Shown here: piece by piece, positions 1,127 to 39,093 of the stretch | How the letters are laid out: the number at the start of each line of letters is the position of its first letter | Position numbering within the stretch: the stretch's first letter is position 1 | Virus record (IMG/VR): IMGVR_UViG_3300035682_002088 | Coordinates: 1-44,111 of that record | Reading direction: 5' to 3' (one strand) | From: a virus | DNA length: 44,111 bases | The notes under the pieces: model-generated | What the model was told of the DNA's origin: nothing | Database searches by the model: none | The model's input: only the letters and a program-made list of their open reading frames with translations | Program-made: the position numbers and the translations under genes

Positions 1127-2557
1127 ATGAAATTAGTAGATGCCCTTCAGACAAAAAACACATTCACCGAAAACGGAATGCCTACGAATTCGTCATCATT
1201 GAATGATTGTGTTAATTTATTTTTCCAGATTGGAGCAATGCGTGGTCAAGAAACAAATAGACTGATTAATCTATTTGTTAAAGCATACGAAGAAGATGCA
1301 TTGACAGCGATGAGAATATTATTCTGGGTTAGAGATGTTAGAGGTGGTGCTGGTGAGAGACAAATCTTTAAAGATATTATAACATACCTTGCAAACAATA
1401 GGACTGATGTTATGAGAAAAAATATTCACTTAATATCAGAATTTGGTAGATGGGATGATATTTTATGTTTAATTGGTTCACCACTTGAAAATGATGTATT
1501 AACATTAATTTCTAATGAATTAAATAAAGGTAATGGGTTGTTATCAAAATGGTTACCAAGACCAAATGTTAATAATAGAGAAAAGAAAAGGCAAGCAAAC
1601 GTTTTAAGAAAATTCTTAAAATTAACACCAGCAGCTTATAGAAAAATGTTATCAGAATCATCAAAAACTGTTGAACAATTAATGTGTTCAAATAGATTTG
1701 GTGATATTAATTACTCTCACGTACCATCAAAAGCAATGTCAAGTTACATGACATCTTTCACGAAAAGAGATAATGATAGATTTTTAGACTATTTGGAATC
1801 AGTTAAAAAGGGTGATGTTAAAATTAATGCTGGTGCTGTATATCCATATGACATCGTTAAGAATTTAAAATTTGGTAATTCAAAAGGTGCTGATGCGCAA
1901 TGGGATTCATTACCAAATTATTTGGAAAATAATAATGAAAGTTTTCTACCAGTTGTTGACGTATCTGGTTCAATGGAATGTGCAGCTGGAAATAATCCAA
2001 ATATTACTTGTATGGATGTTGCAATCTCTTTAGGGTTGTATATATCAGAAAGAAACGAAGGTGCGTTTAAAGATGTGTTTATGACATTCTCAGAGAGACC
2101 AGAACTACAAGTATTGAAAGGTTCATTATCTCACAGATATAAACAATTATCAACTTCTGAGTGGGGTATGTCAACAAATATTGAAAGTGTTTTTGATAAA
2201 ATCCTTAATTCTGCTATTACAAATAATGTACCTGAATCAGAAATGCCATCTATGATATTAATTCTATCAGATATGGAGTTCAATAGTGGGGTTAGAGGTA
2301 ATTGTGATAAAAGAGCTCAAGAATTATTTGAATTAGCTTATTCTGAAGCTGGATATAAATTACCAAAAATTGTATACTGGAATATTCATGCTAGAAATAG
2401 TAATTTCCCAGTTCAATTTAATGAAAATAACGTTGCGTTAGTTAGTGGGTTCTCACCTTCATTATTAACCAGTTTGTTATCAGGTAAAGATTTAACACCA
2501 TATTCTATGATGATGGACATTATAAATAACGAAAGATATTCAATTATAACTATTTAA
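1127..2557 (+). CDS. DUF2828-type protein with von Willebrand A (MIDAS) domain, TROVE/Ro60-like
   Basis: A 476-residue protein. The N-terminal half is helical and includes MRILFWVRDVRGGAGERQIF, the arginine- and glycine-rich stretch typical of DUF2828 proteins. The C-terminal half is a vWA domain: DVSGS of the metal-ion site near residue 279, a Thr in WGMSTNIE, and LILSDMEFN with the final Asp. DUF2828 is known from plants, giant viruses and phages and resembles the Ro60/TROVE layout (helical repeats plus vWA), where the helical ring binds RNA. No biochemical role is established for the phage version. RNA binding here is inference, prompted by the structured region just downstream. Confidence 0.75.
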   Translation: MKLVDALQTKNTFTENGMPTNSSSLNDCVNLFFQIGAMRGQETNRLINLFVKAYEEDALTAMRILFWVRDVRGGAGERQIFKDIITYLANNRTDVMRKNIHLISEFGRWDDILCLIGSPLENDVLTLISNELNKGNGLLSKWLPRPNVNNREKKRQANVLRKFLKLTPAAYRKMLSESSKTVEQLMCSNRFGDINYSHVPSKAMSSYMTSFTKRDNDRFLDYLESVKKGDVKINAGAVYPYDIVKNLKFGNSKGADAQWDSLPNYLENNNESFLPVVDVSGSMECAAGNNPNITCMDVAISLGLYISERNEGAFKDVFMTFSERPELQVLKGSLSHRYKQLSTSEWGMSTNIESVFDKILNSAITNNVPESEMPSMILILSDMEFNSGVRGNCDKRAQELFELAYSEAGYKLPKIVYWNIHARNSNFPVQFNENNVALVSGFSPSLLTSLLSGKDLTPYSMMMDIINNERYSIITI

Positions 2558-4043: not shown

Positions 4044-5066
4044 ATGAGCAAAAGGGATTACTACCAAGTGTTAGGATTAAATAAAAACGCAACACAATCT
4101 GATATAAAGAAATCATATAAAAATCTTGCAAAGAAATCACATCCAGATGTTGGTGGTGATGAAGAAACATTCAAGGAAATCTCTGAAGCATATGAAATTC
4201 TAAGTGATGAAAACAAACGAAAAGAATATGATACATTTGGCCATAACAAACCAAATGGTCACAATAGAAATTACCAAGATATGTATGGATTCGGCTTTAA
4301 CCCAAAAGCTGAAGCTAGAAATAGAAAAGGTAGGGATTTCAGAATAAATATTAAATTAACATTAGAAGAAATATTTAATGGTGGAACCAAAAAAATAAAA
4401 TACAATAGAGATTCAGCTTGCGGTACTTGCAATTCAGTTGGGGGGTTCAATAATAAAAAATGTGCACATTGTAATGGTGGTGGATTTATTGTTGAGAACA
4501 TAAGAACACCATTCGGTATTATACAAAATGTTGCAACATGTAACCACTGTAATGGTATTGGTGAAACATATACTGAAACATGTAATGATTGTGGTGGTTC
4601 TGGTATTAAAAATAAAGAAGAAAATATTGAAATAAGCATACCAATTGGTATTAAAGATGGTATGTATTTGAATTACCCTGGAATGGGTCAAGCAATTAAA
4701 AATGGTACATCTGGTTCATTAATTATAGTATTTAATGAATTACCACATAAAACGTTTATTAGAGATGGTAATAATTTAAGATTAAACTTAAAAGTACCAT
4801 ATAGTAAATTAGTATTAGGTGGTAAGGTTGATATAAAAACAATAGAAGGTGGTGAAATAAGAATAAACATACCTGAATATAATAATATTGGTGATACATT
4901 AAGAATTTCAGGTAAAGGTATGAAGATACAAAATTCAAGTCAAACTGGTGATTTAATGGTTATATTAGATGTCGACATACCAAAAGAAATTAATGAAGAA
5001 ACTAGAGAATTATTAGAAAAATTAAAAAATATTGAAAATAATGTTGTTGAAATAGAAAAAGGTTAG
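4044..5066 (+). CDS. dnaJ: DnaJ (Hsp40) co-chaperone
   Basis: A 340-residue type I DnaJ. The J domain occupies residues 1-70 with the HPD tripeptide (KKSHPDVGG) that stimulates DnaK ATPase. Then comes a short Gly-poor linker and a zinc-finger domain with all four CxxCxGxG-type repeats ([32 protein letters not shown]; residues about 130-195). The C-terminal substrate-binding region is complete. It is slightly shorter than cellular DnaJ (about 375). No DnaK is in the window, so it would act with host DnaK. It lies close to ClpP, tmRNA and FKBP genes. Confidence 0.95.
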
Positions 5067-5109: not shown

Positions 5110-5535
5110 ATGGCAAAATTTGAACAACCATTTGATGACACAAAAAGTATTTTTGATACTCTTATTGTTAACGCTGATTTAGATAGAAATGTAACTATCG
5201 AAGTTTTGGTAAATAACAGACAAAAAGATATCTACAAATTAATTAAAACTAACGATTTAACAAAATACAAAACAAACATTGATGTATTTGTGGTTTTAAA
5301 TGAAACTGTTTTCGACCAATTAAATGAGGTACAAAAAGTTATTATTGCTGATGAAGCATTAGCTGGTATTCATTATGATAATGAAAAAGACAAGTTGGTA
5401 GTTGGTAAAGCTGATTTCTCAACGTTTAGTGGATTACTTAAAAAATATGGTGCTGAACAATGTGTTGAATTAAAAGAATTAATTAAACTAATCTATTCTC
5501 AAGAGAGAGAAGCGGAAGCAGAAGCTGAAGGGTAA
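5110..5535 (+). CDS. Hypothetical protein
   Basis: A 141-residue acidic protein, family not recognised, ending in a Glu/Ala tail (REAEAEAEG). It contains LNEVQKVIIADEALAGIHYD, a segment that looks like a phage-conserved fold. Its stop shares one base with the next start (5535), so translation is probably coupled in the operon that ends with clpP. Confidence 0.65.
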   Translation: MAKFEQPFDDTKSIFDTLIVNADLDRNVTIEVLVNNRQKDIYKLIKTNDLTKYKTNIDVFVVLNETVFDQLNEVQKVIIADEALAGIHYDNEKDKLVVGKADFSTFSGLLKKYGAEQCVELKELIKLIYSQEREAEAEAEG

Positions 5536-5789
5536 TGAGTAGAGAAGAAATTGAAGAAATAAATCCAGAAGCATTATTGTGTGATGGGTTTGATGAAGCA
5601 ATAATTGGCATGGCTGAGAGAATAAATCTCAGCCATGTTGTTGCTTATGACGTTGATAAAATGTTGGAAATCATGGTTGAACGTGACGGAATGACTTACG
5701 AAGAAGCTATGGAATATTTCGACTATAACATATTAGGTGCTTGGATGGGTGAATATACACCAGTTTACATTAGAAAAAATATATTATGA
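5535..5789 (+). CDS. Hypothetical protein
   Basis: An 84-residue, strongly acidic protein, family unknown. The segment YEEAMEYFDYNILGAWMGEYTP is rich in aromatic residues. The TGA stop overlaps the ATG of the next gene (5786), the second tight coupling in this operon. Confidence 0.65.
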   Translation: MSREEIEEINPEALLCDGFDEAIIGMAERINLSHVVAYDVDKMLEIMVERDGMTYEEAMEYFDYNILGAWMGEYTPVYIRKNIL

Positions 5790-6043
5790 ATAAACCATTG
5801 AAAAATATGTTGAGAGCTACATTTGAAGCTCAAAAACAAAAAGCATTAGCAACGTTACAATTATTATCACACCATTCAGTTGGTATCGGTGACCATTCAA
5901 CAAATGATTACTACAAAAACGCTGAAGAAGCGTTGGAAATGTTGTGTGATGCTGATGATAAATTAGAAACTTTAGATAAATACGAATTCTCAATTGAATC
6001 TGGAGAATACGTTGTAACGGTTAATGGTAAAAAATATGAATGA
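5786..6043 (+). CDS. Hypothetical protein
   Basis: An 85-residue protein with a basic helical N-terminus (LKNMLRATFEAQKQKALATL) and an acidic C-terminal half. No recognised family. Its TGA stop lies inside the first codons of clpP, so clpP translation may depend on it. Confidence 0.65.
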   Translation: MNKPLKNMLRATFEAQKQKALATLQLLSHHSVGIGDHSTNDYYKNAEEALEMLCDADDKLETLDKYEFSIESGEYVVTVNGKKYE

Positions 6044-6704
6044 ATTTAAGAAGTACGCAACAAAACATATGGGTGTTAGCGGTATGCAGTTTCATTACTG
6101 GGAACAATATCAAAATAGTTTAACTCCATATATTTTAGAAGAGAGAGAATTAAGAGCCACACAGCTAGATATTTTTTCGAGATTAATGATTGATAGAATT
6201 ATCCATTTATATGGTACAGTAAATGATAATATGATGTCTATTACTCAAGCTCAATTATTATTTTTAGATAATCTTGAATGTAGTGATATTAAATTACATA
6301 TATCTAGTCCAGGTGGTAGTGTTTTAAGTGGTTTAGGTATCGTTGATGTTATGAATTACATTTCATCTGATGTTGTAACTGTAAATATGGGTTTAGCGGC
6401 ATCTATGGGTAGTATTTTATTATCCTCTGGAGCTAAAGGTAAACGAAGTAGTTTAAAACATAGTAGAGTTATGATTCATCAGGTATCATCATCAGCTCAA
6501 GGTGTTATATCAGACATGCAAATTTCATTTAAGGAAACTGAAAAATATAATGATGTGTTATTTGAAATATTAGCAGAAAATACTGGCAAAACTAAAGAAC
6601 AAATTTTGATTGATGCAAATAGAGATTTTTGGTTAAGTAGTGAAGAAGCTATTGAATATGGTGTTATTGATGAAATAATTACAAAAAAAGTAAAAAAATC
6701 TTAA
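6036..6704 (+). CDS. clpP: ClpP-like serine protease
   Basis: A 222-residue ClpP protease subunit with an intact catalytic triad in order: Ser123 (GLAASMGS), His148 (RVMIHQ) and Asp197 (RDFWLS). The oxyanion-side Gly motif ISSPGGSV is at about 90-96. ClpP forms a barrel that degrades proteins fed by ClpX or ClpA. No Clp ATPase is in this window, so a host unfoldase is presumably used. I chose the ATG at 6036 because it follows an A-rich run; an in-frame ATG at 6024 adds four residues. It ends 49 bases before the tmRNA gene, whose tag normally sends proteins to ClpXP. Confidence 0.93.
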   Translation: MNEFKKYATKHMGVSGMQFHYWEQYQNSLTPYILEERELRATQLDIFSRLMIDRIIHLYGTVNDNMMSITQAQLLFLDNLECSDIKLHISSPGGSVLSGLGIVDVMNYISSDVVTVNMGLAASMGSILLSSGAKGKRSSLKHSRVMIHQVSSSAQGVISDMQISFKETEKYNDVLFEILAENTGKTKEQILIDANRDFWLSSEEAIEYGVIDEIITKKVKKS

Positions 6705-6724
6705 CATTAATCAAATATATTTAG

Positions 6725-6732
6725 TATATTTG
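6725..6732 (+). promoter_or_regulatory. Promoter -7 box (TATATTTG) for tmRNA
   Basis: It lies 21 bases before the mature tmRNA 5' end. The upstream stretch (CATTAATC, A/T run, ATATTTAG) is nearly identical to that before the promoter at 14169, suggesting the same promoter class. Confidence 0.75.
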
Positions 6733-6753
6733 CATTATAGTTCTTTGATTTAT

Positions 6754-7126
6754 GGGTTAGACGTTGGAATTGACTATTAACAGTCGTAAATAGCAAGCAT
6801 GTAGCGTTAGATGGAAACGCTTTAATTACCTATCAATTTGTTTAAATGGCAATATTTTTGACATTGAAGAAAACTTCCTAGCAAATGCTTCGGTAGAAGT
6901 AGTTTCAGGAGAGGTAGCATTAGCCTAAGATAATGAGATGGTGGTAAACCACTAAAAACTCTAACTTATTGGAGGTTAAACTAAATAGGTAGAAGATTAG
7001 TTTTCAGTAGAACGAACTGTAATAAGGGAACTGTGGGATTTTGGATAATTAGATTAAATTATATCCTAAACATGTAGAAAGCATTGAAGAGTTAGTAACA
7101 CGGTGGTTCGAGCCCACCCTAATCCA
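6754..7126 (+). ncRNA. ssrA: tmRNA (transfer-messenger RNA), ribosome rescue
   Basis: The 5' end GGGTTAG (6754-6760) pairs with CTAATCC (7119-7125) to make the 7-bp acceptor stem. The T arm is GGTGG-TTCGAGC-CCACC (7102-7118). The 5' region GACGTTGGAATTGAC matches the tmRNA D-like signature. A tag reading frame ends ...GAG GTA GCA TTA GCC TAA (stop 6926-6928), encoding GEVALA if resumed at GGA 6908, or ANASVEVVSGEVALA if resumed at GCA 6881. Small hairpins (GAAG/CTTC at 6866-6877, CTTC/GAAG at 6888-6899) precede the two options. CCA is not encoded after the discriminator A. The length, about 373 nt, is normal for tmRNA. Confidence 0.93.
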
Positions 7127-7198
7127 CTTTTTACGTTTTTTGTACTTTTTCGTTTTAAATAAAAGTATAACATAATAATTAAAATTAAAAAATTAACT

Positions 7199-7621
7199 AT
7201 GAGTAAAGTTGAAAGCGGTAAAACCGTAAAAGTACATTACACTGGCACATTTGAAGATGGTCAAGTGTTTGATTCATCCGTTAACCGAAATGAACCAATA
7301 ACATTCACAGTGGGTTCAAATCAGGTTATCCCAGGTTTTGAAAATGCGGTTGTAGATATGACAATTGGTGAAACTAAAAAAGTAACGTTGTTACCAGAAG
7401 AAGCATACGGTAATCCTCGTGAGGAAATGATTCAAGAGGTTGACAAACAATTTGTACCACCAACGGTTCAAGTTGGTGAAATGTTAACAATTGAAACTGA
7501 AAATGGCGTCTTTAACGTTATTGTTAAAGAGGTTAAAGAATCAACCGTTGTTTTGGATGCTAACCACCCAATGGCTGGAAAAACTTTGGTTTTCGAATTG
7601 GAATTGGTTGATGTTGAATAA
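7199..7621 (+). CDS. FKBP-type peptidyl-prolyl isomerase, SlyD-like
   Basis: A 140-residue protein. The FKBP core is visible: VKVHYTGTFEDGQVFDSS, then the signature VIPGFENAV, an inserted-flap region, and the SlyD hallmark DANHPMAGKTLVFELEL. It lacks the His/Cys-rich metal-binding tail of E. coli SlyD. It catalyses cis-trans isomerisation of prolyl bonds and acts as a folding helper in the cytoplasm. It sits just after tmRNA and is followed by its own strong terminator, so it is probably expressed as a single gene. Confidence 0.93.
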   Translation: MSKVESGKTVKVHYTGTFEDGQVFDSSVNRNEPITFTVGSNQVIPGFENAVVDMTIGETKKVTLLPEEAYGNPREEMIQEVDKQFVPPTVQVGEMLTIETENGVFNVIVKEVKESTVVLDANHPMAGKTLVFELELVDVE

Positions 7622-9302: not shown

Positions 9303-10532
9303 CTAAAGAACCATGGGTTTCTCAATAAGAGATGATTTATTCATTAGATTGAATCTATGAATCACATTGGATTTATCCAATGGCTGTGTCATTGCAGCAA
9401 GATGGTTGTTAAAATACCTTTCTAAAATATTAATAGATGCGTTTAAATCTCTATCTATTTCTATATCATTACTTAATTTAACTGACCTATCACTTAAAGT
9501 TATTTTATCTTTAAATTGTTTACCAGTTAAACAATTTAATTGTGTGGTATATGCTTCATTTATCTTTATAATATCTGTTTTAAACATATATGATTTATAT
9601 TTTAACATATCCACAAACATGGATATATTACTCTGATGAAATGATTTATTTAAACCATTATATTTACCATCACCACTACTCATTAACTTTTTGACCGATA
9701 GGTCACCAATAACTATACATTTATAGTTCATACTCAATAATTCTTTACTCTGAGTATGTAGAGTTTGTTTTACTTGTTTATTCTTTTTATTATATAATTT
9801 ATTTAATACTAATTTTAATTTATCATTTCGTTTACTACCTTTATTTGTATTACTTAATTTATTCTGTACCTTACTAATTTGTTTTAAATAATATTTAGAT
9901 ATTTTCTTTGATTTGTTTTTAATTACAATAACCTTACCTTTATTATCTACACCAGTACCTAATCGTTTTAACCCCAAATCAATTGCTAATACTTTATTGT
10001 CTTGCTGGATAATGTCGTCATAGACGACATTATCATTAACACATATATCACATATCCATTTATTATTAATAAATTTAATTCTAATCTCTTTTATATCTAA
10101 TTTAGTTATATCTAAATGTGATTTATATTTAAATTTAATTTTATTAATAGTAATTACTTCATTAGAGTTAATAATCCATCCACTTTGATTAAATACAATA
10201 GTATGTAATTTACTAACATCTTCTATTTTACGTGGTGGTTTAGCCGTTTTATCTTTTTGTATTAATTTAAAGAAGGACTGATAAGATGAATAAACTTCTT
10301 TAGATATACGTTGACACGCTTTAGAATTAAGTTTAGATACGTTAGTATTTTTTCTTAATTCAGTAATTCTTTTATCTAATTCATAGTTATGAACTATTTT
10401 TTTATTATCTTCGTATTCAAATTGTTCAATATCGATTAATGTGTTCCATAAGTTATTTCTAATAGACGATAGTTCAAGTAACTGACTTACTTGATTTACA
10501 TCTGGAAATAATCTTATATTATATGTTTTCAT
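9303..10532 (-). CDS. tnpB: TnpB RNA-guided nuclease (IS605 OrfB)
   Basis: A 409-residue TnpB. RuvC-I is VLAIDLGLKRLGTG, and RuvC-III is DRDLNASINIL near the C-terminus. The RuvC-II position reads CIVIGDLSVKKL, with Gly where the usual catalytic Glu stands; a Glu occurs instead in INEAYTTQ. The zinc finger is degenerate, with one Cys (LNCLTG) instead of four. TnpB proteins cut DNA guided by an RNA from the element's right end. I chose the ATG at 10532 (MKTYNIRLFP), because the longer ORF start at 10577 would overlap the divergent tnpA start. Confidence 0.88.
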   Translation of the reverse strand: MKTYNIRLFPDVNQVSQLLELSSIRNNLWNTLIDIEQFEYEDNKKIVHNYELDKRITELRKNTNVSKLNSKACQRISKEVYSSYQSFFKLIQKDKTAKPPRKIEDVSKLHTIVFNQSGWIINSNEVITINKIKFKYKSHLDITKLDIKEIRIKFINNKWICDICVNDNVVYDDIIQQDNKVLAIDLGLKRLGTGVDNKGKVIVIKNKSKKISKYYLKQISKVQNKLSNTNKGSKRNDKLKLVLNKLYNKKNKQVKQTLHTQSKELLSMNYKCIVIGDLSVKKLMSSGDGKYNGLNKSFHQSNISMFVDMLKYKSYMFKTDIIKINEAYTTQLNCLTGKQFKDKITLSDRSVKLSNDIEIDRDLNASINILERYFNNHLAAMTQPLDKSNVIHRFNLMNKSSLIEKPMVL

Positions 10533-10575
10533 ATTAATTTTACTAGTCGTTCTAATATATAAATATATGGTAATC

Positions 10576-10989
10576 ATGAAAAAGTTAAATAATAATAAAA
10601 TAAATTCTAAAAATAGACGTAAATATTATTTAAAAATACATTTAGTTTTAGTTACTAAATACAGAAAATCTATTTTAATTAATAGTTTTAATGATTTTAT
10701 TAAAGAAAATATTAAATTAATTTCATTAAAATATGATTTTGAAATAAATTTAATAAATAGTGATAAAAACCATATACATATGTTAATATCATTCACGCCA
10801 AATTTAACCATTAATTCAATTGTTAGGGTAATTAAACAAGAAAGTACAATAATTTCATGGAATCATTATAGTAGTTATTTGAATAGATATTATTTTAAAG
10901 AAAAAACATTATGGAGTGATGGTTATTTTGTTAGTTCTGTCGGTTATACGGATGAAAATACTGTTAAAAATTATATAAATAATCAATAA
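10576..10989 (+). CDS. tnpA: TnpA Y1 (HUH) transposase, IS200/IS605 family
   Basis: A 137-residue protein. The HUH metal-binding motif is HIH (66-68, in KNHIHMLIS). The catalytic tyrosine is probably Tyr133 in VKNYINNQ at the C-terminus. The N-terminus RKYYLKIHLVLVTKYR matches the family start. It cuts and rejoins single-stranded hairpin ends. It is divergent from tnpB, the IS605/IS608-type arrangement. An alternative start at 10567 adds three residues. It could also mobilise the other hairpin-ended tnpB elements in trans. Confidence 0.92.
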   Translation: MKKLNNNKINSKNRRKYYLKIHLVLVTKYRKSILINSFNDFIKENIKLISLKYDFEINLINSDKNHIHMLISFTPNLTINSIVRVIKQESTIISWNHYSSYLNRYYFKEKTLWSDGYFVSSVGYTDENTVKNYINNQ

Positions 10990-11257: not shown

Positions 11258-12388
11258 ATGGAAAAAAGAATTAAATTTGATATCCAAGTACCTACAGATA
11301 TCCAACATATCCAACAAATATTTAAAAAAAATGGATATATCCTATATCTAGTTGGTGGTTCAGTTCGTGATGCATTATTAAACAACAAAATAAAAGATTA
11401 TGATTTGGTGACTGATGCGGTTCCAGATAAGGTTGAAGAAATAATGAACAACTCTGGCTTTAAAACATTAGCAACTGGAAAAGCATTTGGAGTTATAAAT
11501 GTTTTTACTGATAAATATGAATATGAAATCGCAACTTTTAGAGGTGAATGTTATAGTGATAAAGACAAAAGAAGACCAGAAACTGTATATTTTTCAGATA
11601 TAGAAACTGATTCAGCTAGAAGGGATTTAACTTGTAATGCATTATATTATGATATTGAAACTAAAGAGATAATTGATTTGGTTGATGGGTATTCTGATAT
11701 TAAAAATGGAATAATAAAAACTGTTGGTAAAGCTGAAGATAGGTTTAATGAGGACAAATTGAGAATATTAAGGATTATTCGTTTTGCTGCTAGATTTGGT
11801 TCTAATATTGATAATGAAACTGATTTAGCATTAATTAAAGATTTGAAACTTGAGGGTATTTCTGGTGAAAGGATTAGGGATGAATTTATCAAAGGTTTAG
11901 TATCAGCAAAGTCAAGTAAAAACTATTTAGAATTGGTTGACAGATATAATTTATTTGATTGGATATTCAAAGATTTAATTATTGATAAACGATTTATAGA
12001 TAATGATGACCCAATAGTTTTAATATCAATGTTATTACACAAAAATGGCTCATCAGTTTTATCTAAAAAATTAAACGAATTAAAATATAGCATTGATGAG
12101 ATTAGAAAGATAACAACATTAATTTCAATGTTAGACTTGGATATTGAAACAGCACCAAGATTAAAGAGATTATTCATTAAATCTGGTTTATGTAGTGACA
12201 AATTAAGAAACTTTGGTGTCAATATGTGGATTAGCACGCAATTGTTAGATTCTTTTGAAGAATATTTAAAATTACCTAATATTACAGGACAAGAAGCAAT
12301 GGATAAATATAAAATAGAAAAACCTGGAGCTGAGTTAGGTAAAGCTATAAACATCATGGAAATTGATGTATTTAATAGCTTCATATAA
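11258..12388 (+). CDS. tRNA nucleotidyltransferase / poly(A) polymerase family (CCA-adding type)
   Basis: A 376-residue class II enzyme. The head motif GGSVRDALL (33-41) is followed by the metal-binding DYD (47-49), then ARRDLTCNAL, IIDLVDGYSDI, and the neck motif EDRFNEDKLRILRIIRFAARF. These are the classical motifs of PcnB/Cca. It transfers CTP/ATP to RNA 3' ends. Whether it adds CCA or poly(A) cannot be decided by eye. It could mature the phage tmRNA, which lacks an encoded CCA. It is followed by its own terminator. Confidence 0.92.
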   Translation: MEKRIKFDIQVPTDIQHIQQIFKKNGYILYLVGGSVRDALLNNKIKDYDLVTDAVPDKVEEIMNNSGFKTLATGKAFGVINVFTDKYEYEIATFRGECYSDKDKRRPETVYFSDIETDSARRDLTCNALYYDIETKEIIDLVDGYSDIKNGIIKTVGKAEDRFNEDKLRILRIIRFAARFGSNIDNETDLALIKDLKLEGISGERIRDEFIKGLVSAKSSKNYLELVDRYNLFDWIFKDLIIDKRFIDNDDPIVLISMLLHKNGSSVLSKKLNELKYSIDEIRKITTLISMLDLDIETAPRLKRLFIKSGLCSDKLRNFGVNMWISTQLLDSFEEYLKLPNITGQEAMDKYKIEKPGAELGKAINIMEIDVFNSFI

Positions 12389-12948: not shown

Positions 12949-13431
12949 ATGAATATATTTGTTTTAGATTCAAACCTAAAAAAATGCGCTGAATATCACG
13001 CAAATCGTCATGTTGTCAAAATGATAATTGAATACAATCAATTATTATGTTCCGCACATTGGCTCACTGATAGTGAAGCACCCTACAAATTAACCCACAA
13101 AAATCATCCTTGTGCAATCTGGACCAGAGAATGTATTGAAAATTACATTTGGTTGGCTGATTTATGTTTGGAATTATGTAAGGAATATACCTACAGATAT
13201 GGAAAACGACATAAATCACAAGATGTCGTTGAATGGTGCATTATTAATAAACCAAATTTAATTGAAAAGGGTGACATAACTGAATTTGCATTGGCAATGC
13301 CAGATGAATGCAAAATTGGGAATGCCGTTGAATCCTACAGAGAATATTATATTAAACACAAACAATCCATTTGTTCTTGGAAAAATAGAGAAATTCCATA
13401 TTGGTTTGAAACTGAAAGTTGTTTTGTTTAA
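12949..13431 (+). CDS. Conserved phage protein, His/Trp/Cys-rich
   Basis: A 160-residue protein of a type I have seen in many tailed phages of aquatic bacteria: LDSNLKKCAEYHANRHVVKM near the start, then YKLTHKNHPCAIWTRE, EYTYRYGKRHKSQ, and a C-terminal WKNREIPYWF. Conserved His residues (HANRH, HKNH) suggest metal binding or catalysis. Some relatives are loosely annotated as DNA repair or glycosylase proteins, but I cannot support that here. Confidence 0.7.
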   Translation: MNIFVLDSNLKKCAEYHANRHVVKMIIEYNQLLCSAHWLTDSEAPYKLTHKNHPCAIWTRECIENYIWLADLCLELCKEYTYRYGKRHKSQDVVEWCIINKPNLIEKGDITEFALAMPDECKIGNAVESYREYYIKHKQSICSWKNREIPYWFETESCFV

Positions 13432-13451
13432 ATTTTATAAAAAAAAATAAT

Positions 13452-14138
13452 ATGAATAATGAAGAATTTTTAAAAATTTTAATTAAAGAAGAATTAGAAC
13501 GAAAAGTTTTATATGAGGGTTTAATTTTCTCTTACCCACCAACAAAGGTTATTAAAGAATTAAAAAAAAGAGGTTTCTTTGATGTTGCATATAATAATAA
13601 AACAATAAACATTAATTTTCTCTTATCAAAAAACAACAAAGAAAAATATAAAAGTTTAAATGATTTTATGCAAAATCTTTTCGGTTGGTTTCACGGAGTT
13701 TCAATAGCTGGAAAAACACCAACAAAAGATAAATTAGATTTTTTAAAACATTCAAATGGAAATGTTACCTTGCAATATGAAGCCAAATTCGATATCGAAG
13801 TTGATGATATCCCAGAACATATTTATCATTTAACAACATGTGATAAATTAAAAAAGATTCAAAAAATAGGTTTAACCCCTCATGACTCCCTTGATTACTT
13901 CAATTTTGAGAATAGAATATATTTCTCATTGAATAAAGAAAAATTAAAGGATTTATCCAAAATAAAATCATCAATAACCTCAAATAATTGTTTCGTTATT
14001 TTGAATATTCAAGTTAAAGGTTTTTCAAATAGAATAAGATTTTTTAATGACCCTAATTTTGAGGGTGGTATTTATACGCTAGAAAATATTCCACCTCAAA
14101 CAATTGAACCAGTTGAAAGATTTGAATTAAATAATTAA
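13452..14138 (+). CDS. ADP-ribosyltransferase-fold-like protein with prohead-type leader (tentative)
   Basis: A 228-residue protein. The N-terminus MNNEEFLKILIKEELERKVL is followed by YEG: L20-Y-E22 then Gly is a good match to the T4-type prohead cleavage rule. The C-terminal half has HIYHLTTCDKLKKIQKIGLT followed by RIYFSLNKEKL, which resembles the H-x-T / NL-xx-I-xxx-GL pattern of ADP-ribosyltransferase-fold or RNA 2'-phosphotransferase enzymes. In T4, the ADP-ribosyltransferase Alt is packaged via such a leader, so an analogous injected enzyme is possible. I use ATG 13452 because the ORF extension from 13419 overlaps the previous gene. Confidence 0.5.
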   Translation: MNNEEFLKILIKEELERKVLYEGLIFSYPPTKVIKELKKRGFFDVAYNNKTININFLLSKNNKEKYKSLNDFMQNLFGWFHGVSIAGKTPTKDKLDFLKHSNGNVTLQYEAKFDIEVDDIPEHIYHLTTCDKLKKIQKIGLTPHDSLDYFNFENRIYFSLNKEKLKDLSKIKSSITSNNCFVILNIQVKGFSNRIRFFNDPNFEGGIYTLENIPPQTIEPVERFELNN

Positions 14139-14493: not shown

Positions 14494-15666
14494 ATGTATA
14501 TTAATAATCAAACTATTGATGCTGTTCAAATTGTAACAATTAAAGGTTTCAAAACATTATATAAAGGTGAAGAACCAGCATTAAAAATTGAACAAGTTTT
14601 ATTGGAAGAAAATGATTTTACATTGGTTGCTCAAAAAGACTTATACCAACCTGGTGACAAAGTAATTTATATTCAACCAGATTATAACCTTCCAGACATT
14701 GAATTGTTTGAATGTTTTATTAGACCAGGTGGTGACCCAAAGAAAAGTATGTTGGGTTCAAAAAACAGAATTAGAGCAAAATCATTCAACTTTCATATTG
14801 GTGATAACGAAAAAATATATTCAGTTGGAATATTATTACCACTTAATGAGGTTCAAGATTATATTACTAAAAACAATTTAAAAGGTGATAACTTAACCGA
14901 ACAACTTGGCATAACCAAATATGAGGAACCTGATACCACAAGTGGTGGCAAACAATCTGGTGGAAAACCATTCCCATCTTATTTATATAAGACCGATGAA
15001 ACAAATTTTAATAACGTTTCAAATAAAATGGTATTTCCTTGTGAATATATTGGAACGATAAAAACTGATGGTAGTTCAATAACAATATTTGATAATCTTA
15101 ATGAGTATGGAATTTGTTCAAGAAACTTATTAAAACCTTTGCAAATCACTAAAGTTGTTGGTTATAGAAAAGAAGGGTTTTTTGATAAGGTTAAAAAAAT
15201 ATTTGGTTATAAACCAGATTTAAAAATATACCAAACGGTTGAAAATGATGATAAGTTTATATCATTAGCAAAACCTTATCTTGAAAAACTTAAAACATAT
15301 TGCAAGGAAAATAATATTAAGATTGCATTAAGAGGTGAAGGTAATGGTCAAAGTTGGAAAGGTAGTGGAAACAAAAATAATCCTGATGCAAAGAATAATG
15401 AAAATATTAAGTTCTTTGGTGCTGATGATTTATCAAGTGGTTCAGCAAAGAAAATGTCTGAAAAGGAATTTAATGAGTTATGTAATACTTTGGATTTAAA
15501 TCGATGTGATATCGTATTTAATCAAAGATTTGAAACTAAGGAAGAATTAATAAAAACTTGTAATGATTATTTTAAAACAAACCTTATTGAAGGTATTGTT
15601 ATTAGAAGTTTAGATAGTAAATTTTCTTGCAAATTTATGAGTTTAGAATATGACAGTAAAAAATAA
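14494..15666 (+). CDS. RNA ligase (DRB0094/Rnl2-like nucleotidyltransferase)
   Basis: A 390-residue protein. The nucleotidyl-accepting lysine is K190 in GTIKTDGSS (motif I). Motif IIIa-like RGEGNGQ, motif IV EGIVIRS and motif V CKFMS follow in order. The N-terminal 130 residues (LKIEQVLL, then YQPGDKVIYIQPDYNLP) look like the extra N-terminal domain of Deinococcus-type RNA ligases. It seals RNA breaks with ATP through a lysyl-AMP intermediate. An RlaP-type nucleotidyltransferase gene follows within 700 bases, a pairing known from RNA-repair clusters. Confidence 0.88.
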   Translation: MYINNQTIDAVQIVTIKGFKTLYKGEEPALKIEQVLLEENDFTLVAQKDLYQPGDKVIYIQPDYNLPDIELFECFIRPGGDPKKSMLGSKNRIRAKSFNFHIGDNEKIYSVGILLPLNEVQDYITKNNLKGDNLTEQLGITKYEEPDTTSGGKQSGGKPFPSYLYKTDETNFNNVSNKMVFPCEYIGTIKTDGSSITIFDNLNEYGICSRNLLKPLQITKVVGYRKEGFFDKVKKIFGYKPDLKIYQTVENDDKFISLAKPYLEKLKTYCKENNIKIALRGEGNGQSWKGSGNKNNPDAKNNENIKFFGADDLSSGSAKKMSEKEFNELCNTLDLNRCDIVFNQRFETKEELIKTCNDYFKTNLIEGIVIRSLDSKFSCKFMSLEYDSKK

Positions 15667-21666: not shown

Positions 21667-22032
21667 ATGTTAGATGGGTTCTTAAATGATAGTAATGATG
21701 ATGGGTTTGATATTAATGAATTCTTAAAGAGAATATTGAATATGAAGGATTCAATTAGTAATGGTGATGATAATTTTGGTGATTTAATTTCAACAGAAAT
21801 ATTTGATGAAGATGGTTTTACTTTTGAGAAAAAAACATTTATGACTAAAAATGGTAAACTAACTATCATTGATATGATATCAACACCATTTGGTGAATCA
21901 ATTAATAAAAAAATACCTTTAGACATTCAATTAAATAAAGCAGTAGAGGATGAAAGATATGAAGATGCTGCAAGGATTAGAGATTTAATTAATATTGAAA
22001 AAGAAGTCGAAGAAGATAAATGGAATTTTTAA
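21667..22032 (+). CDS. UVR-motif small protein
   Basis: A 121-residue acidic protein. The C-terminal segment LDIQLNKAVEDERYEDAARI followed by RDLI is a UVR motif, the helical hairpin found in UvrB, UvrC, ClpC and McsA that mediates protein-protein contact. The rest (FEKKTFMTKNGKLTIIDM) has no family I recognise. It could bind a host UVR-domain partner such as a Clp ATPase or UvrABC. That is inference. Confidence 0.6.
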   Translation: MLDGFLNDSNDDGFDINEFLKRILNMKDSISNGDDNFGDLISTEIFDEDGFTFEKKTFMTKNGKLTIIDMISTPFGESINKKIPLDIQLNKAVEDERYEDAARIRDLINIEKEVEEDKWNF

Positions 22033-24755: not shown

Positions 24756-27329
24756 ATGAAGTTTAAAAATTTAACTGACGAAGAAATTAATAGCATCAAA
24801 GAACAATATTACAACAGAGTTAACCTAAATTTAACTGTTGAAAAATTAGCAATTAAATTAGGAGATGAGTATGGTGTGACAGAACGAACAATGAGGAAAT
24901 GGTTTGTTAAATTAGACTTTAAAGAAAAAACTGATATTGAACCAGAGCAATATTTAAAAGCAAAATCTAGAGTTCATGATAACACCAAGAAAAGGTTCAT
25001 AATTTCCTTTGCCCAAAATAATACGTCAACACACCCTTCCTTTTTAAAAAATATCGAGGCATATGCCAAACATATTAATGCTGACATTCACATAATTGCG
25101 GGTAGGTATAAAAACCCAACATCAATGTGGACACAAAATCAACAATCAGAAGAAAAATGGGATGATAAAATTATAAAATATCTGGATGCTAATAGACATG
25201 ATATTCACGAATATGTATCAATTTTATCTGATATAAAAATACAACCGACAGCAGTCAATCCAATGGTCGGGTTACAAGCTTTAAGTGGTGTTAACTCATG
25301 TATATTCGGTAGCCCAAAAGTACAATTAGAAATGATACCTGTTTTAGAGGGTTGTAAGCCAAAAATGATGCTAACTACTGGCGCTATCACTAAAAAGAAT
25401 TATACAGATTCTAAAGCTGGTAAAACTGGTGATTTTCATCACACATTTGGATTTGTTATTGTTGAAATAAAAGATGATGAAACATTTTTTGTTCGTCAAG
25501 TGACTGCTGATGATAAAACGGGTGATTTTACTGATTTATATTACAATGTTAGTAAAGGTGTTGTATCTAAAATTGATAAAATTGAAGGTATTGTATTAGG
25601 TGATTTACATATTGGTCACCATGATGAAGTTGTTTTAAGTAAAACCATTGAATTAATGGATAATTTAAAACCTAAACATGTGGTTTTACATGATGTTTTT
25701 GATGGTGACTCAATTAGTCACCACCAAATGAAAGACCCATTTATTCAATATGGTAAAGAAGTTCAAGGAACTAATGATTTAGGTAAAGAAATTAATTGTA
25801 TGTTAGAACAATTAAATCGTTTTACTAAATTTGAAAACGTTGTTATTGTTAGAAGTAATCATGATGATTTTGTTGATAGGTGGTTAAAGAATGAGGATTG
25901 GAAGAAACAACCAACATTTAAAAACGCACCATTATATATGGATTTAAGTGCGAGATTACTTAGGCAATACTCAACTGGGTTTGACGATGTAAAGGGTGTT
26001 ATTCCAGAATTAATTAATGATAAATTTCCTAATTTTATTACATTAGGTAGAAGCTCATCATATAAAATTAAAGGTTGGGAATGTGGAGCTCATGGTGATT
26101 CTGGCTCAAACGGCTCTAGAGGGTCGTTACTACAATTCCGCAAACTGAATACTAAAATAATAGTTGGGCATTACCATTGCTTACCAGCTGAGTATAAGGT
26201 TCAAACAAAAGATAATGGGTGGAAAGAAATAAGAGCTATTAAACAAGGTGATATAATTCTCAGTTACGATTCAATAACAAATAAGAATGTTTGGAACGTG
26301 GTTAATGAATTTATTGAAAGTGATTATAATGGTGTTATGTTACAAATAAGTGGTAATGGTTTTGAACAAACATTTACAGATAAACATATGTTAATGTTGA
26401 GAGATGGTTCATACATACCAGCTAGTGAAGCTATATGTACTAGGTCATCTTCAGAATTACCATTATCAGCATTACCAGAAGATACTTTTGGTACATCAAT
26501 TCCAGAAAAAGTTATTAGGCAGATTGTAGCCATTGCTGCTGACGGTTCTCAAGATAAATATAGAATTAGATTTCATTTAAAAAAGAAAAGAAAAATTGAT
26601 AGATTGAAAGATTTTTTTGGTGATGATTTAAAAATATATACTGATGAAGAGAATAATTTTGATGGCTATATTTCAACTAGGGGTGAAACGTTTAAAAATT
26701 TAATGAAATATAAATACAATATAAAAACTGTTAAAAATATATCTGTAGAAATCCTAGAATGGGATTACAAATCACTTGAAATTTTAATTGATGAATTAAA
26801 ATTTTGGGATGGAACTTATGATACTGGTAATAATGGAAACCAATATAGTACATCTAATAAAGTTGAGTGTAGTGTAATTTCATCTGCTTTAAACAGGTTA
26901 GGTTATTCACATACTGTAAATAAACGAGAATATGAAAATGAAAACCATAAAACATCGAACGTTATAACTTGGTGTAGTGATAGAGATTTTAATCGAAGTA
27001 GTAAAAAAATGAACCATGATGTTAGATTCAATGGTTGGGGTTTTAATACCTACCAAAGTAATACAAAAGTCTATTGCGTTTCAGTTGAAAATAAATGTTT
27101 TTGGGTTCAGTCAGCTAAAACTGGTCAAGTATCTTTAACTGGTAACTCACCAGGTAGAAAAGATGGTGCTATAGCCGTGGGTACTAGTACAAAACTACGT
27201 GTGGGATATAATGTAGGCCCTAGCTCATGGTTTCAGAGTCACGTAATCATTCATAAAGATGGGAGGGCACAACATATTAATTTTGTTAAGGATAAAAATG
27301 GTGAAATGGGATATACTACCCTCACCTAA
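24756..27329 (+). CDS. Calcineurin-like metallophosphoesterase interrupted by an intein
   Basis: An 857-residue precursor. Residues 1-55 form a helix-turn-helix-like start (LAIKLGDEYGVTERTMRKWF). The phosphoesterase metal motifs are GDLHIGHHD (about 284), HDVFDGDS (about 312), RSNHDDF (about 370) and GHYH (471-474). The last motif is split by a 323-residue intein (see 26178-27146). The mature protein (about 534 residues) continues SPGRKDGAIAVGTSTKLRVG. The family hydrolyses phosphodiesters, here probably of nucleic acid or nucleotide. The exact substrate is unknown. Activity would require intein splicing, since the intein separates the last His from its flank. Confidence 0.85.
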   Translation: MKFKNLTDEEINSIKEQYYNRVNLNLTVEKLAIKLGDEYGVTERTMRKWFVKLDFKEKTDIEPEQYLKAKSRVHDNTKKRFIISFAQNNTSTHPSFLKNIEAYAKHINADIHIIAGRYKNPTSMWTQNQQSEEKWDDKIIKYLDANRHDIHEYVSILSDIKIQPTAVNPMVGLQALSGVNSCIFGSPKVQLEMIPVLEGCKPKMMLTTGAITKKNYTDSKAGKTGDFHHTFGFVIVEIKDDETFFVRQVTADDKTGDFTDLYYNVSKGVVSKIDKIEGIVLGDLHIGHHDEVVLSKTIELMDNLKPKHVVLHDVFDGDSISHHQMKDPFIQYGKEVQGTNDLGKEINCMLEQLNRFTKFENVVIVRSNHDDFVDRWLKNEDWKKQPTFKNAPLYMDLSARLLRQYSTGFDDVKGVIPELINDKFPNFITLGRSSSYKIKGWECGAHGDSGSNGSRGSLLQFRKLNTKIIVGHYHCLPAEYKVQTKDNGWKEIRAIKQGDIILSYDSITNKNVWNVVNEFIESDYNGVMLQISGNGFEQTFTDKHMLMLRDGSYIPASEAICTRSSSELPLSALPEDTFGTSIPEKVIRQIVAIAADGSQDKYRIRFHLKKKRKIDRLKDFFGDDLKIYTDEENNFDGYISTRGETFKNLMKYKYNIKTVKNISVEILEWDYKSLEILIDELKFWDGTYDTGNNGNQYSTSNKVECSVISSALNRLGYSHTVNKREYENENHKTSNVITWCSDRDFNRSSKKMNHDVRFNGWGFNTYQSNTKVYCVSVENKCFWVQSAKTGQVSLTGNSPGRKDGAIAVGTSTKLRVGYNVGPSSWFQSHVIIHKDGRAQHINFVKDKNGEMGYTTLT
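26178..27146 (+). other. Intein with LAGLIDADG-like homing endonuclease region
   Basis: Codons 475-797 of the host frame. It begins with Cys (CLPAEYKVQTKDNGWKEI) and ends VSLTGN with the final Asn, followed by extein Ser. Internal splicing blocks are visible: FTDKHMLMLRDG (block B-like, His) and VYCVSVENKCFWVQ (block F). The middle has two LAGLIDADG-like segments (IVAIAADGSQ and LIDELKFWDGTYD). It should splice itself out and rejoin GHYH to SPGR. Inteins favour conserved catalytic motifs, as seen here. Confidence 0.85.
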
Positions 27330-30384: not shown

Positions 30385-30822
30385 ATGGATATTATTATTA
30401 AGAATAATAAAGCCAGGTACGAATATGAATTTATTGAAAAATATTTGGCTGGTATTAAATTGGTTGGTGGTGAGGTTAAAAGTGTTAGGGGTCATAAAGC
30501 GTCAATATCAGAAGCTTATTGTTATATTTCTAATGGTGAAATATTCATAAAGGGGATGCATGTTAGTGAATATGAAAGAGCCAATAAATATGATAGTTAT
30601 GAACCAACCAGAATTAGAAAATTACTTTTAAATAAAAAGGAAATATTAAAATTAGAATCTGATTTAAATAAAAAGGGATTAACAATTGTACCACTATCTG
30701 TAGTAATCAAAAATGGTTTTATTAAATTGGAGATAGCGTTATGTAGGGGTAAAAATGTTAGAGATAAAAGAGAAGATATTAAAAAGAGAGATATAGAACG
30801 AGAATTAAACATTAAATTTTAA
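30385..30822 (+). CDS. smpB: SmpB, tmRNA-binding protein
   Basis: A 145-residue protein covering the whole SmpB length. Seen in order: NNKARYEYEFIEKYLAGIKL, GGEVKSVRGHKASISEAY, IKGMHVSEYERAN, RIRKLLLNKKEI, GLTIVPLSV, and the tail GKNVRDKREDIKKRDIEREL. SmpB binds the tRNA-like end of tmRNA and delivers it to stalled ribosomes. Together with the tmRNA gene at 6754-7126 it makes a phage-encoded trans-translation pair. It is 8 bases before the SigA-like gene. Confidence 0.95.
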   Translation: MDIIIKNNKARYEYEFIEKYLAGIKLVGGEVKSVRGHKASISEAYCYISNGEIFIKGMHVSEYERANKYDSYEPTRIRKLLLNKKEILKLESDLNKKGLTIVPLSVVIKNGFIKLEIALCRGKNVRDKREDIKKRDIERELNIKF

Positions 30823-33481: not shown

Positions 33482-34066
33482 ATGAATAAAATAAAAAATA
33501 TTACCATATTCAAAGGTAAAAAAGCAAAATCTGGTCCAGTACACACAATGAATATTACAATTGGTGATTTGGTAAAAGTATTTAGACCAAAAACATTCCA
33601 TGATAAATATACCTATATCGGTTCAGTACCATGGAATGAGGAAGGTGATATTTTTAAAGTAATGGAACCTTTAATAATATTTATGGATTATAAAATGAGA
33701 CCTAAATGGTGTCCAAAATGGTTTCTAAGATTTTTACATCTATTCGGTAACGATAATTCAATTGTAAGAGTTAGGAACTGGAAATTAAATCGATTATTTA
33801 ATAAAATAACTAAAGGTTATCAACTTACCGATTATAAAACAAAATGGGAATGGTATGATTTAAGGATATCAGTTAGAGCTTGTGAGCAAGTCCAAGATTT
33901 AGCTAGTATGATTGAATCAACATATTATAGAAAAGGTAAAAAACAAGATTTAATTGAAGATATTAAATCAATTGAAAAAGATTTTGATTCTGGTTTTATG
34001 TCCTTAAATGATTTGCAAGAATATTATGATGATTTAATCGATAAAAATAAACTACCCATCGGCTAA
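33482..34066 (+). CDS. Hypothetical protein, C-terminus altered by a tnpB element
   Basis: A 194-residue basic protein (MKPLIIFMDYKMRPKW-like middle, read as EPLIIFMDYKMRPKWCPKWF). Family unknown. Its last four codons and stop (CTA CCC ATC GGC TAA) lie inside the end hairpin of the element at 34052, so the natural C-terminus ended at or beyond 34051. I use ATG 33482, which follows an A/T-rich stretch; a start at 33467 would add five residues. Confidence 0.55.
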   Translation: MNKIKNITIFKGKKAKSGPVHTMNITIGDLVKVFRPKTFHDKYTYIGSVPWNEEGDIFKVMEPLIIFMDYKMRPKWCPKWFLRFLHLFGNDNSIVRVRNWKLNRLFNKITKGYQLTDYKTKWEWYDLRISVRACEQVQDLASMIESTYYRKGKKQDLIEDIKSIEKDFDSGFMSLNDLQEYYDDLIDKNKLPIG

Positions 34067-35334
34067 AGACCAATGGGTTTTGTAGGATTAATCCTAACTG
34101 GGTGGTTTATAGCACCGCTTATATCCGTAAGGGATAAATCCCTACCAAACTTACTTTTAAGATATTTTCTTAAAATATTTATACAACCATTTACATCTGC
34201 ATGAATTAAAACATCTTCAGATGTTTTAAATAATCCACGTTTAATTCGTTTACCTAAATAAGTTTCCTTCTTACCTATTACCTCTAAATCTAATGCGGAG
34301 CATTTGCTTGTATAACTTTCTTCTTGTAATATATAATCTATTCCATAATAATTACATTTTGCTTCTAATTTTTTTTTTAATATACCGAAAGGTATCGAAA
34401 CAAAGTTCTGATTATTCTTACTTCCTAAATTAATTTCTTGTTTTATTCCTTTAAAATCACCTATTACTAAAGTACCTATATCATTATTTAAACAATAATT
34501 AACCACTTTACTTACTGTATTATTTAAATAATTATTAATATAATTTTTTCTATATTCACTTAATTTAATAAATCTTTTTGTGTTTTTATCTTTTATTTTA
34601 TTTATTTCATAACTACTTTGTAATTTAGCTTTAGTTTTATTATAATGTTGATTAACTGATTTTAATAGTTTACCATTAAAGATAAATGATTTTTTATTAA
34701 CTGTATCATAAGTTGTTATTAGATTATCTAATCCACAATCTAAACTAATATAATTCTTTTTATTTAATGGTTTAATTTCATTATGTTTTTCATAACAAAA
34801 TAGAATTTCATATTGTTTACCCCCGTAGGTGGGTTTAATTTGTAATTGTTGTAATTTAGTTATATTAAGATTAGTAGGTAAATCTAATATTAAATCTTTT
34901 TGAGTAATATTATATAAATCTCTAAACTTTTTAGTTAACCCAATATATACTTTATTACCTTTAACTCTAGCACTTCTACCAGCAACGAAGATGGACCACC
35001 CATCTTCTTTTGGTAAGTAGTTGGGTACTTTTACATCTGCTGAATATTTACCTTTATTTTTTAGTTTTAATAAAGAAAAGAATGATTTAAAATTTCTATC
35101 AACAATCCTATGAATTTGTTGTGCTGAATCAGTAATTAAATAACTATAATGTTCATTATCTTTTATGATATGATATTGTTCATTATAATTAAGATAAGAA
35201 TCATTTAATTTAAAATATTCTTTTATTACATAGTTACAAGAATTATATAATCTAGCTGAATGAAATGATAATTTATCTACGATAAATTTATCATTTTCAC
35301 TTAAAATCAGATTATTTTTAAGAGTAAGTATCAT
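34063..35334 (-). CDS. tnpB: TnpB RNA-guided nuclease
   Basis: A 423-residue TnpB. RuvC-I is ISLDCGLDNLITTYD and RuvC-III is IHADVNGCINIL. The RuvC-II position reads TLVIGDFKGIKQEINLG, without the usual Glu; candidates for a relocated Glu are KQE and QEESYTSKCS. The zinc finger is degenerate (one Cys remains). The sequence is closer to the TnpB of the IS607 element at 37269 (shared KQEIN, KNNQNFV, EESYTSKCS, KRGLF) than to the IS605 TnpB at 9303, although its ends are IS605-like. Confidence 0.88.
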   Translation of the reverse strand: MILTLKNNLILSENDKFIVDKLSFHSARLYNSCNYVIKEYFKLNDSYLNYNEQYHIIKDNEHYSYLITDSAQQIHRIVDRNFKSFFSLLKLKNKGKYSADVKVPNYLPKEDGWSIFVAGRSARVKGNKVYIGLTKKFRDLYNITQKDLILDLPTNLNITKLQQLQIKPTYGGKQYEILFCYEKHNEIKPLNKKNYISLDCGLDNLITTYDTVNKKSFIFNGKLLKSVNQHYNKTKAKLQSSYEINKIKDKNTKRFIKLSEYRKNYINNYLNNTVSKVVNYCLNNDIGTLVIGDFKGIKQEINLGSKNNQNFVSIPFGILKKKLEAKCNYYGIDYILQEESYTSKCSALDLEVIGKKETYLGKRIKRGLFKTSEDVLIHADVNGCINILRKYLKSKFGRDLSLTDISGAINHPVRINPTKPIGL

Positions 35335-37149: not shown

Positions 37150-37272
37150 ATGACTGAAAGAGAGTTAGAAATACTAAGATTTGAAAAAGTTGAAGTATCA
37201 ATTGAAGAAAGTGGTGATAAACCATATTATTATTACACAGTTACTAATTATATAGAAAAATATTCTATTTAA
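37150..37272 (+). pseudogene. Truncated hypothetical protein at an IS607 insertion
   Basis: ATG 37150 encodes MTERELEILRFEKVEVSIEE, then SGDKPYYYYT, and a short foreign-looking end (VTNYIEKYSI) to TAA 37272. The SGDKPYYYYT stretch is familiar from longer phage proteins that continue with a folded domain. The IS607-type tnpB ends at 37269, overlapping this ORF end, so the gene looks cut by the element. Confidence 0.45.
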
Positions 37273-38528: not shown

Positions 38529-39093
38529 TTTTTTCTAAAAAATCAATAATTTCTTGTTTATTTTTCTTTCTTCTTAAACCATACATTCTTGCTGAGAATG
38601 AATATATGATTGAAACTAAATCTTGTATTAGGTCTGTTTTGTCATCATCAGTTTTATTAACAACGATAATTTCTTTATCATTGTTATTTAATAATGTTTC
38701 AATGTAGTTAAATCCAAATCTGGTTAACCTATCTTTATTCTCAACTAAAAGAATATCGTAATCCTTTCTTTTAAGTAGTTTAATTAATTTAGTTCTATTA
38801 TCATTTAAACCTGAACCAACCTCCTTGATATTATCAATAATCGTATAACCATTATTGATAGCGTAATTGTATAATCTATCAGATTGTCTATCTAAATTAT
38901 CCTTTCTATCTGAATTAGATACCCTAGAGTAGATAATAACTTTATTTTTATTTTCAAATTTATTAATAGGTATTAATACGTGGTTAGTCTCATCAATGAA
39001 CGCACCATCAATTTTACCTTTTTTAAACCTATTCCAAGCAGTTCGATAAGTTACATTAAACTTTTTTGCATAATCTGATAATTTATAATACAT
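38515..39093 (-). CDS. tnpA: IS607 TnpA serine recombinase
   Basis: A 192-residue protein. Residues 1-50 are a MerR-like HTH (YKLSDYAKKFNVTYRTAWNR). The catalytic domain has IIYSRVSNSDRKDNLDRQSD with the nucleophile Ser in YSRVS, then VENKDRLTRFGFNYIETLL with conserved arginines. IS607 TnpA cuts and joins double-stranded DNA with little target specificity. The N-terminal DNA-binding position is typical of the family. Confidence 0.93.
   Translation of the reverse strand: MYYKLSDYAKKFNVTYRTAWNRFKKGKIDGAFIDETNHVLIPINKFENKNKVIIYSRVSNSDRKDNLDRQSDRLYNYAINNGYTIIDNIKEVGSGLNDNRTKLIKLLKRKDYDILLVENKDRLTRFGFNYIETLLNNNDKEIIVVNKTDDDKTDLIQDLVSIIYSFSARMYGLRRKKNKQEIIDFLEKNDIN

Follow-up and report, generated by a model that had tools for sequence, protein, structure and literature searches.

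The purpose of the tmRNAs that phages carry is an open question, and the peptide tags that tmRNAs encode are commonly regarded as short and exchangeable for one another. A tmRNA is present in about 2% of phage genomes (PMC9004378). Complete tmRNA genes are known from the mycobacteriophages Bxz1 and Wildcat and from Bacillus phage G (PMC4131195), and the tmRNA of the OM43 methylophage Melnitz is of the permuted, two-piece form (PMC9004378); the hosts of these four differ from those of the phages discussed here, and the available portions of both papers do not describe a clpP tandem. In 2020, tmRNA and SmpB were reported in the large genomes of huge phages (Al-Shayeb et al., 2020, PMC7162821), but ClpP is absent from the main text of that report, and no clpP linkage, tag sequence or ClpC was found there. 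Jumbo phages also encode ClpP, ClpS, ClpA and ClpX, for which roles in assembly or against host proteins have been suggested, but the paper on these phage Clp proteins (Iyer et al., 2021, PMC7824862) draws no link to tmRNA, and the word does not occur in it. Lak phages and the 636-kb phage LR756504 hold SmpB, tmRNA and ClpP in one genome; however, the three genes lie far apart and the Lak tag has 10 amino acids (DDEIDFRMAA). An earlier note on the DNA described below had called it unusual for a phage to encode the RNA, its partner protein and a protease subunit together, a view that is not supported in this form, given two of these publications (PMC7162821; PMC7824862) and the Lak phages, which hold all three.

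The DNA analyzed here (the window) is the whole 44,111-base IMG/VR record IMGVR_UViG_3300035682_002088, with a G+C content of about 26%. The record is classed as linear and the window is therefore probably a fragment, so that absences within it carry little meaning; ARAGORN and Rfam at the gathering score found no tRNA or rRNA genes in it. The earlier note had assumed a phage, not a bacterial contig, and this agrees with the IMG/VR record, with three endolysin-like genes among other phage families (Pfam/PHROG) and with synteny to terminase-bearing relatives. The source is a large phage, probably with Bacteroidota as its host.

When compared with bacterial trans-translation and its ClpXP, ClpAP or ClpCP proteases, the locus has the same tRNA-like ends, G3-U70 pair, A at position -4, tag frame with stop codon, SmpB with its tail and ClpP with its triad. 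However, here the genes are phage-encoded, clpP and ssrA are adjacent, the tag has 25-26 amino acids instead of 9-10 and ends in AVA, ALA or AFA, and the relatives encode ClpC, not ClpX. The parts belong to known families, and what is new is their use in a trans-translation module of a phage, in which the tag is redesigned and the tmRNA physically tied to ClpP. The reading I favor, at a probability of about 0.68, is that the phage runs its own trans-translation and that this feeds a ClpCP protease of the phage. In the open papers searched, no report was found of the clpP-tmRNA tandem, the long tag family or the tmRNA-SmpB-ClpP-ClpC set.

The tmRNA gene, its upstream sequence, SmpB and the Cca-type enzyme

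6725..6732, + strand: TATATTTG, a match to the TAnnTTTG element, which is enriched upstream in the tmRNA family
6740..6753, + strand: GTTCTTTGATTTAT, leader abutting the 5' end of the tmRNA, with a resemblance to boxA
6754..7127, + strand: tmRNA (ssrA), RF00023 E-value 4.6e-11
11258..12388, + strand: class II CCA-adding/poly(A) polymerase-type nucleotidyltransferase, Pfam PolyA_pol 3e-36, also PHROG
30385..30822, + strand: SmpB of 145 amino acids with DKR motif and C-terminal tail, Pfam 3e-50

In an Rfam E-value scan, RF00023 matched 6754-7129 over the whole model (positions 1-374), and a record-scale search matched the tmRNA again at 6.9e-13. The score of 31.9 bits lies below the gathering score of 47, and the Rfam scan of the window at that score returned no tmRNA; the tmRNA model therefore backs the earlier call with a full-length E-value match but not with a score over the cut-off. 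ARAGORN also made no tmRNA call in the window, though it calls many of the relatives, and I treat this miss as a limit of the program. The acceptor stem (GGGTTAG/CTAATCC, 6754-6760/7119-7125) is paired at 7/7 positions and includes G3-U70, and the T arm at 7102-7118 (GGTGG-TTCGAGC-CCACC) is paired at 5/5. A script found the acceptor stem, T arm and G3-U70 in 33/34 relatives, the 34th being off by one register. Among the 34 aligned tmRNAs, 17 versions of the acceptor stem and 20 of the T stem occur, nearly all fully paired and with G3-U70 kept, and both sides have changed at 33/45 consensus pairs. The RF00023 match, the fold and the catalytic triad together bear out the earlier description of a complete tmRNA, with acceptor stem, T arm and tag frame, directly behind a triad-intact ClpP. 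In one relative (L111:5839-5882), the full tmRNA is immediately preceded by an incomplete duplicate of its 5' part.

Upstream, TAnnTTTG, the Bacteroidota -7 promoter element, occurs in 14/33 members of the tmRNA family against 3.0 expected. GTTCTT is found within 40 nt upstream of 29/33 phage tmRNAs, where 0.3 would be expected; of the bacterial tmRNAs, 13/29 have it within 60 nt upstream. Together, the GTTCTT leader and TAnnTTTG would point to Bacteroidota as both origin and host. The leader GTTCTTTxATTTAT, common to phage and Bacteroidota tmRNAs, resembles the boxA antitermination sites of rRNA.

The full SmpB gene claimed in the earlier note stands, since its product exceeds both NCBIfam SmpB cut-offs, in addition to the Pfam match, and matches an SmpB in the PDB at 7.6e-33. 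SmpB was identified in 9/49 ClpP records, many of them fragments; it was not detected in most tandem records, which are fragments, nor in a 380-kb tandem record (G050), and host SmpB may therefore serve in these cases. One SmpB-bearing phage contig (L020:1501-2904) carries a tmRNA whose tag ends in DEVAVA together with a GOLLD RNA, with about 600 nt between them.

CCA is not encoded in the window tmRNA, where the discriminator A7126 is followed by CTT, and the earlier note had suggested that the Cca-type enzyme could complete this end. The enzyme is real; the NCBIfam CCA model PRK13299 matches it over its full length, below the cut-off, and its PDB relatives are of both kinds, with a poly(A) polymerase as the best match. 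However, a special need for it is unsupported, because the bacterial-type tmRNA that lies beside smpB in MT835488 likewise lacks an encoded CCA and because the host has its own CCA-adding enzyme. Elsewhere in the window, a weak KptA/Tpt1-like match lies beside an RNA ligase-like gene (13419-14138 and 14494-15666), a possible RNA repair pair.

The clpP-tmRNA tandem and its gene block

1127..2557, + strand: DUF2828/DUF7788 RNA-binding-protein-like gene at the start of the block, Pfam/PHROG, homologues in 25 clpP-tmRNA loci
4044..5066, + strand: full DnaJ with J, CXXCXGXG and C-terminal domains, Pfam, homologues in 32 clpP-tmRNA loci
5110..5535, + strand: putative phage metallopeptidase-like small protein (PF18894), Pfam 9.8e-07, homologues in 36 loci
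5535..5789, + strand: conserved small protein, phrog_13182, homologues in 36 loci
6024..6704 (ATG at 6024 or 6036), + strand: ClpP peptidase of the Bacteroidota type, Pfam CLP_protease 5e-59
7199..7621, + strand: FKBP-type prolyl isomerase directly 3' of the tmRNA, Pfam 8e-27, homologues in 12 loci

An alignment-based ClpP search of viral contigs gave more than 570 viral ClpP loci, and in 38 of the best 80 of these, a non-random sample, clpP is followed by a tmRNA that has the same orientation. With the 353-kb G010 and the window itself, the tandem totals 40 viral records, a count in which most records are fragments and related sequences are not independent. A tmRNA profile built on the window tmRNA matched across the 38 loci with E-values from 1e-42 to 1e-93, and a strict tmRNA motif search of shuffled sequence returned none. 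The gap between clpP and tmRNA is 49 nt in the window (57 by script, the profile match beginning 7 nt late in the window tmRNA) and reaches up to 1813 nt in other loci. In G010 and the 233-kb G008, both large SmpB-bearing relatives, the tmRNA also lies directly behind clpP. No neighboring clpP and ssrA were found among the bacterial genomes in which both genes were located; there they lie on different contigs or, in the sole case of a shared contig, with about 126 kb between them. An adjoining tmRNA is absent from many ClpP loci of this phage clade, for example L043.

The tandem sits in a block that opens with the DUF2828 protein and two small genes, continues with DnaJ, the metallopeptidase-like protein and small proteins, and closes with ClpP, tmRNA and sometimes FKBP; homologues of the window block genes occur in 12 to 39 tandem loci, gene by gene. 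The block relatives nearest to the window are L083, L107 and L114, whose neighboring proteins are mostly 59-87% identical; the PF18894 protein between DnaJ and ClpP is 84-86% identical to its three counterparts there. However, the closest relative of the window ClpP itself (82%) is in L043 (L043:4986-5648), the record without a tmRNA beside clpP, and because the neighbors match the other three loci, the window clpP allele may be the product of an in-place exchange. The L043 clpP is also adjoined by a serine recombinase of the IS607-like kind. By eye, three TnpB-like genes were seen in the window (9303-10989, 34063-35334 and 37269-39093), one of them paired with a TnpA-like gene of the Y1 type and another with an IS607-like serine recombinase.

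Prophages often integrate in ssrA, and smpB lies at the edges of some deposited phage records, so that one could regard these genes as recent bacterial cargo without a phage function, either the remnant of an attachment site in ssrA or a contaminating bacterial contig. This explanation is highly improbable and was rejected on the ClpP and SmpB trees, the terminases and the conserved synteny: the tmRNA is full-length and divergent with a tag family of its own, synteny is conserved in up to 39 phage loci, the large relatives carry a terminase, the clade of 42 that holds the window SmpB is made up of phages only (support 0.93), and the window ClpP falls within a phage clade (support 0.94).

The tag reading frame

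6848..6928, + strand: tag frame GNIFDIEENFLANASVEVVSGEVALA-stop of a conserved tag family, pN/pS 0.38 and 0.55

The window tag, encoded by 6848-6925 and closed by a stop codon at 6926-6928, belongs to a family of 25-26 amino acids in the clpP-linked phage tmRNAs, with the consensus (G/D)NDFxVSENFL..A.....GE(L/V)A(V/L/F)A. The majority sequence of the tag across these 40 records reads DNDFIVSENFLDEATCS(-)FAGELAVA, and N2, the NFL of ENFL, and GE are near-invariant. A search with the tag pattern matched G010 only. The pN/pS of the tag is 0.38 for 25-aa and 0.55 for 26-aa tags, compared with 1.0-1.5 in the two other frames, and third positions carry a larger share of the tag variation than in 99% of shuffles of the columns, of which 42 and 66 per 10,000 attain the observed share. 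The phage tag is thus conserved as a protein and under protein-level selection. An A occupies position -4 relative to the resume codon in 33/33 tmRNAs (6844 in the window), the place held in E. coli tmRNA by A86, which is essential for the choice of frame (PMC2481249). An alternative tag frame starting from GCA (AIFLTLKKTS) was discarded because conservation is confined to the GGC frame. The earlier note had recognized that a tag frame is present, yet it overlooked its unusual length and conservation. Protein-level selection on the tag and the tandem in 40 records both make the linked tagging-plus-proteolysis function proposed there more likely.

For comparison, 29 tmRNAs were called in 36 bacterial genomes, mostly of Bacteroidota; 27 have tags of 9-10 amino acids that end in -AA, such as GENNYALAA, and the remaining two calls look like wrong frames. 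The phage tag is almost three times as long as the tags of Bacteroidota, the probable hosts, and the tmRNA database gives 10 amino acids as the commonest tag length (PMC11915505). Other huge phages also have long tag frames, but different ones (read by eye only).

As 31 of the 33 distinct phage tags lack the -AA ending and mostly close with AVA, ALA or AFA, it is not certain that a Clp protease would degrade the tagged proteins. This difference from the readable Bacteroidota tags invites the explanation that the system serves rescue only, with tmRNA and SmpB freeing ribosomes and the tagged proteins, having no host degron, largely escaping proteolysis, while ClpP would degrade host proteins, act in phage maturation or contribute to general proteostasis with DnaJ and FKBP. 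E. coli tmRNA does stay nearly as active when its tag template is altered (PMC2481249), and the loci like L043 show that ClpP of this clade also occurs without an adjoining tmRNA. However, a strongly conserved tag of 25-26 amino acids, including its last six residues, would be unexpected if only release counted, and ClpP adjoins the tmRNA in all 40 tandem records, so I regard rescue alone as unlikely. The tag could instead be a functional peptide that is not a degron, for example one for localization or partner binding, by which unfinished proteins are marked for a chaperone or a compartment of the phage; a threefold length over the host tags and a near-invariant internal ENFL, needless for a C-terminal degron, fit such a role. 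There is, however, no independent sign of a target, and conservation is about as high in the C-terminal GE(L/V)A(V/L/F)A as it is in the core, which leaves this possibility more doubtful still. Finally, mycobacteriophage DS6A has a minimal tmRNA, proposed to act as a decoy by drawing SmpB or ribosomes away from the host tmRNA, and a minimal molecule of this kind does inhibit tmRNA (PMC4131195; PMC11915505); a decoy would need neither a complete, selected tag frame nor a resume signal, and this phage brings SmpB as well, making the comparison a very poor fit.

ClpP and the ClpC-type unfoldase

In the ClpP of the window, the Ser, His and Asp of the triad are all present, and the HMM search (Pfam, 5e-59) agrees with the earlier assignment. 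The best NCBIfam model is PRK14514 with 254.5 bits. A head maturation protease was considered and rejected (NF045542, 78.7 against a cut-off of 120), and because the protein also stays below the housekeeping equivalog cut-offs, it is best described as a divergent ClpP. A search with the single ClpP sequence found L043 as its sole relative, which has no tmRNA beside clpP, and the alignment-based search was needed to find the others. With residues numbered on an E. coli ClpP reference sequence, the position of Tyr62, which lies in the hydrophobic pocket that docks unfoldases, holds His in 62/67 viral-contig sequences, including the window, and Tyr in 26/26 bacteria; the Leu189 position holds Ile or Val in nearly all phage sequences. 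These residues fit a changed unfoldase partner, short of proof.

The earlier note had named ClpXP as the protease, but no ClpX scored over the model cut-off in 41 records, and the large relatives encode a ClpC-type ATPase instead. The ClpX model partly matches a protein of 700-840 amino acids in large records. It contains a pair of AAA domains and ClpB_D2-small; of five such proteins scanned, three also have Clp_N and one has a UVR motif, and judged by these domains it is a ClpC-type unfoldase. Such a ClpC-like protein occurs in 15/49 records, with VGF or MGF at the place of the ClpP-docking loop of ClpC. The 44-kb window fragment contains no ClpC. However, tmRNA, SmpB, ClpP and ClpC are all found in each of four larger records (G008, G010, G032 and G035, 233-369 kb), each of which also has a terminase.

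Under the favored reading, the phage tmRNA would be transcribed, apparently from its own host-like promoter, processed, supplied with CCA and charged with alanine, and it would then, together with SmpB of the phage (or of the host), enter ribosomes that have stalled at the end of an mRNA, an event expected to be common where host and phage nucleases cut mRNA. The further idea of the earlier note, that translation is thereby protected during the destruction of host mRNA, is speculative. Translation would resume at GGC 6848, adding the 26-aa phage-specific tag; the ribosome would be freed, and the tagged protein would pass to a protease formed by phage ClpP and, in the complete genome, phage ClpC. 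A clpP-linked tmRNA family with a conserved long tag and ClpC would tie rescue to proteolysis inside a virus. More tentatively, and with odds that I place below even, rescue and degradation could form a private pathway, in which the long tag is a degron for phage ClpC-ClpP that host ClpXP reads poorly; if so, the proteolysis of interrupted proteins would be out of host control during infection. The tag family supplies a concrete peptide for mass spectrometry and a candidate degron-protease pair for studies of orthogonality.

Two further genes of the window can be mentioned here. A small protein encoded at 21667-22032 has a UVR motif (PF02151), as found in ClpC and its adaptor McsA, and is a possible ClpC adaptor, and at 24756-27329 an A1-type DNA transfer protein (phrog_1745) is split by a Hint/intein domain.
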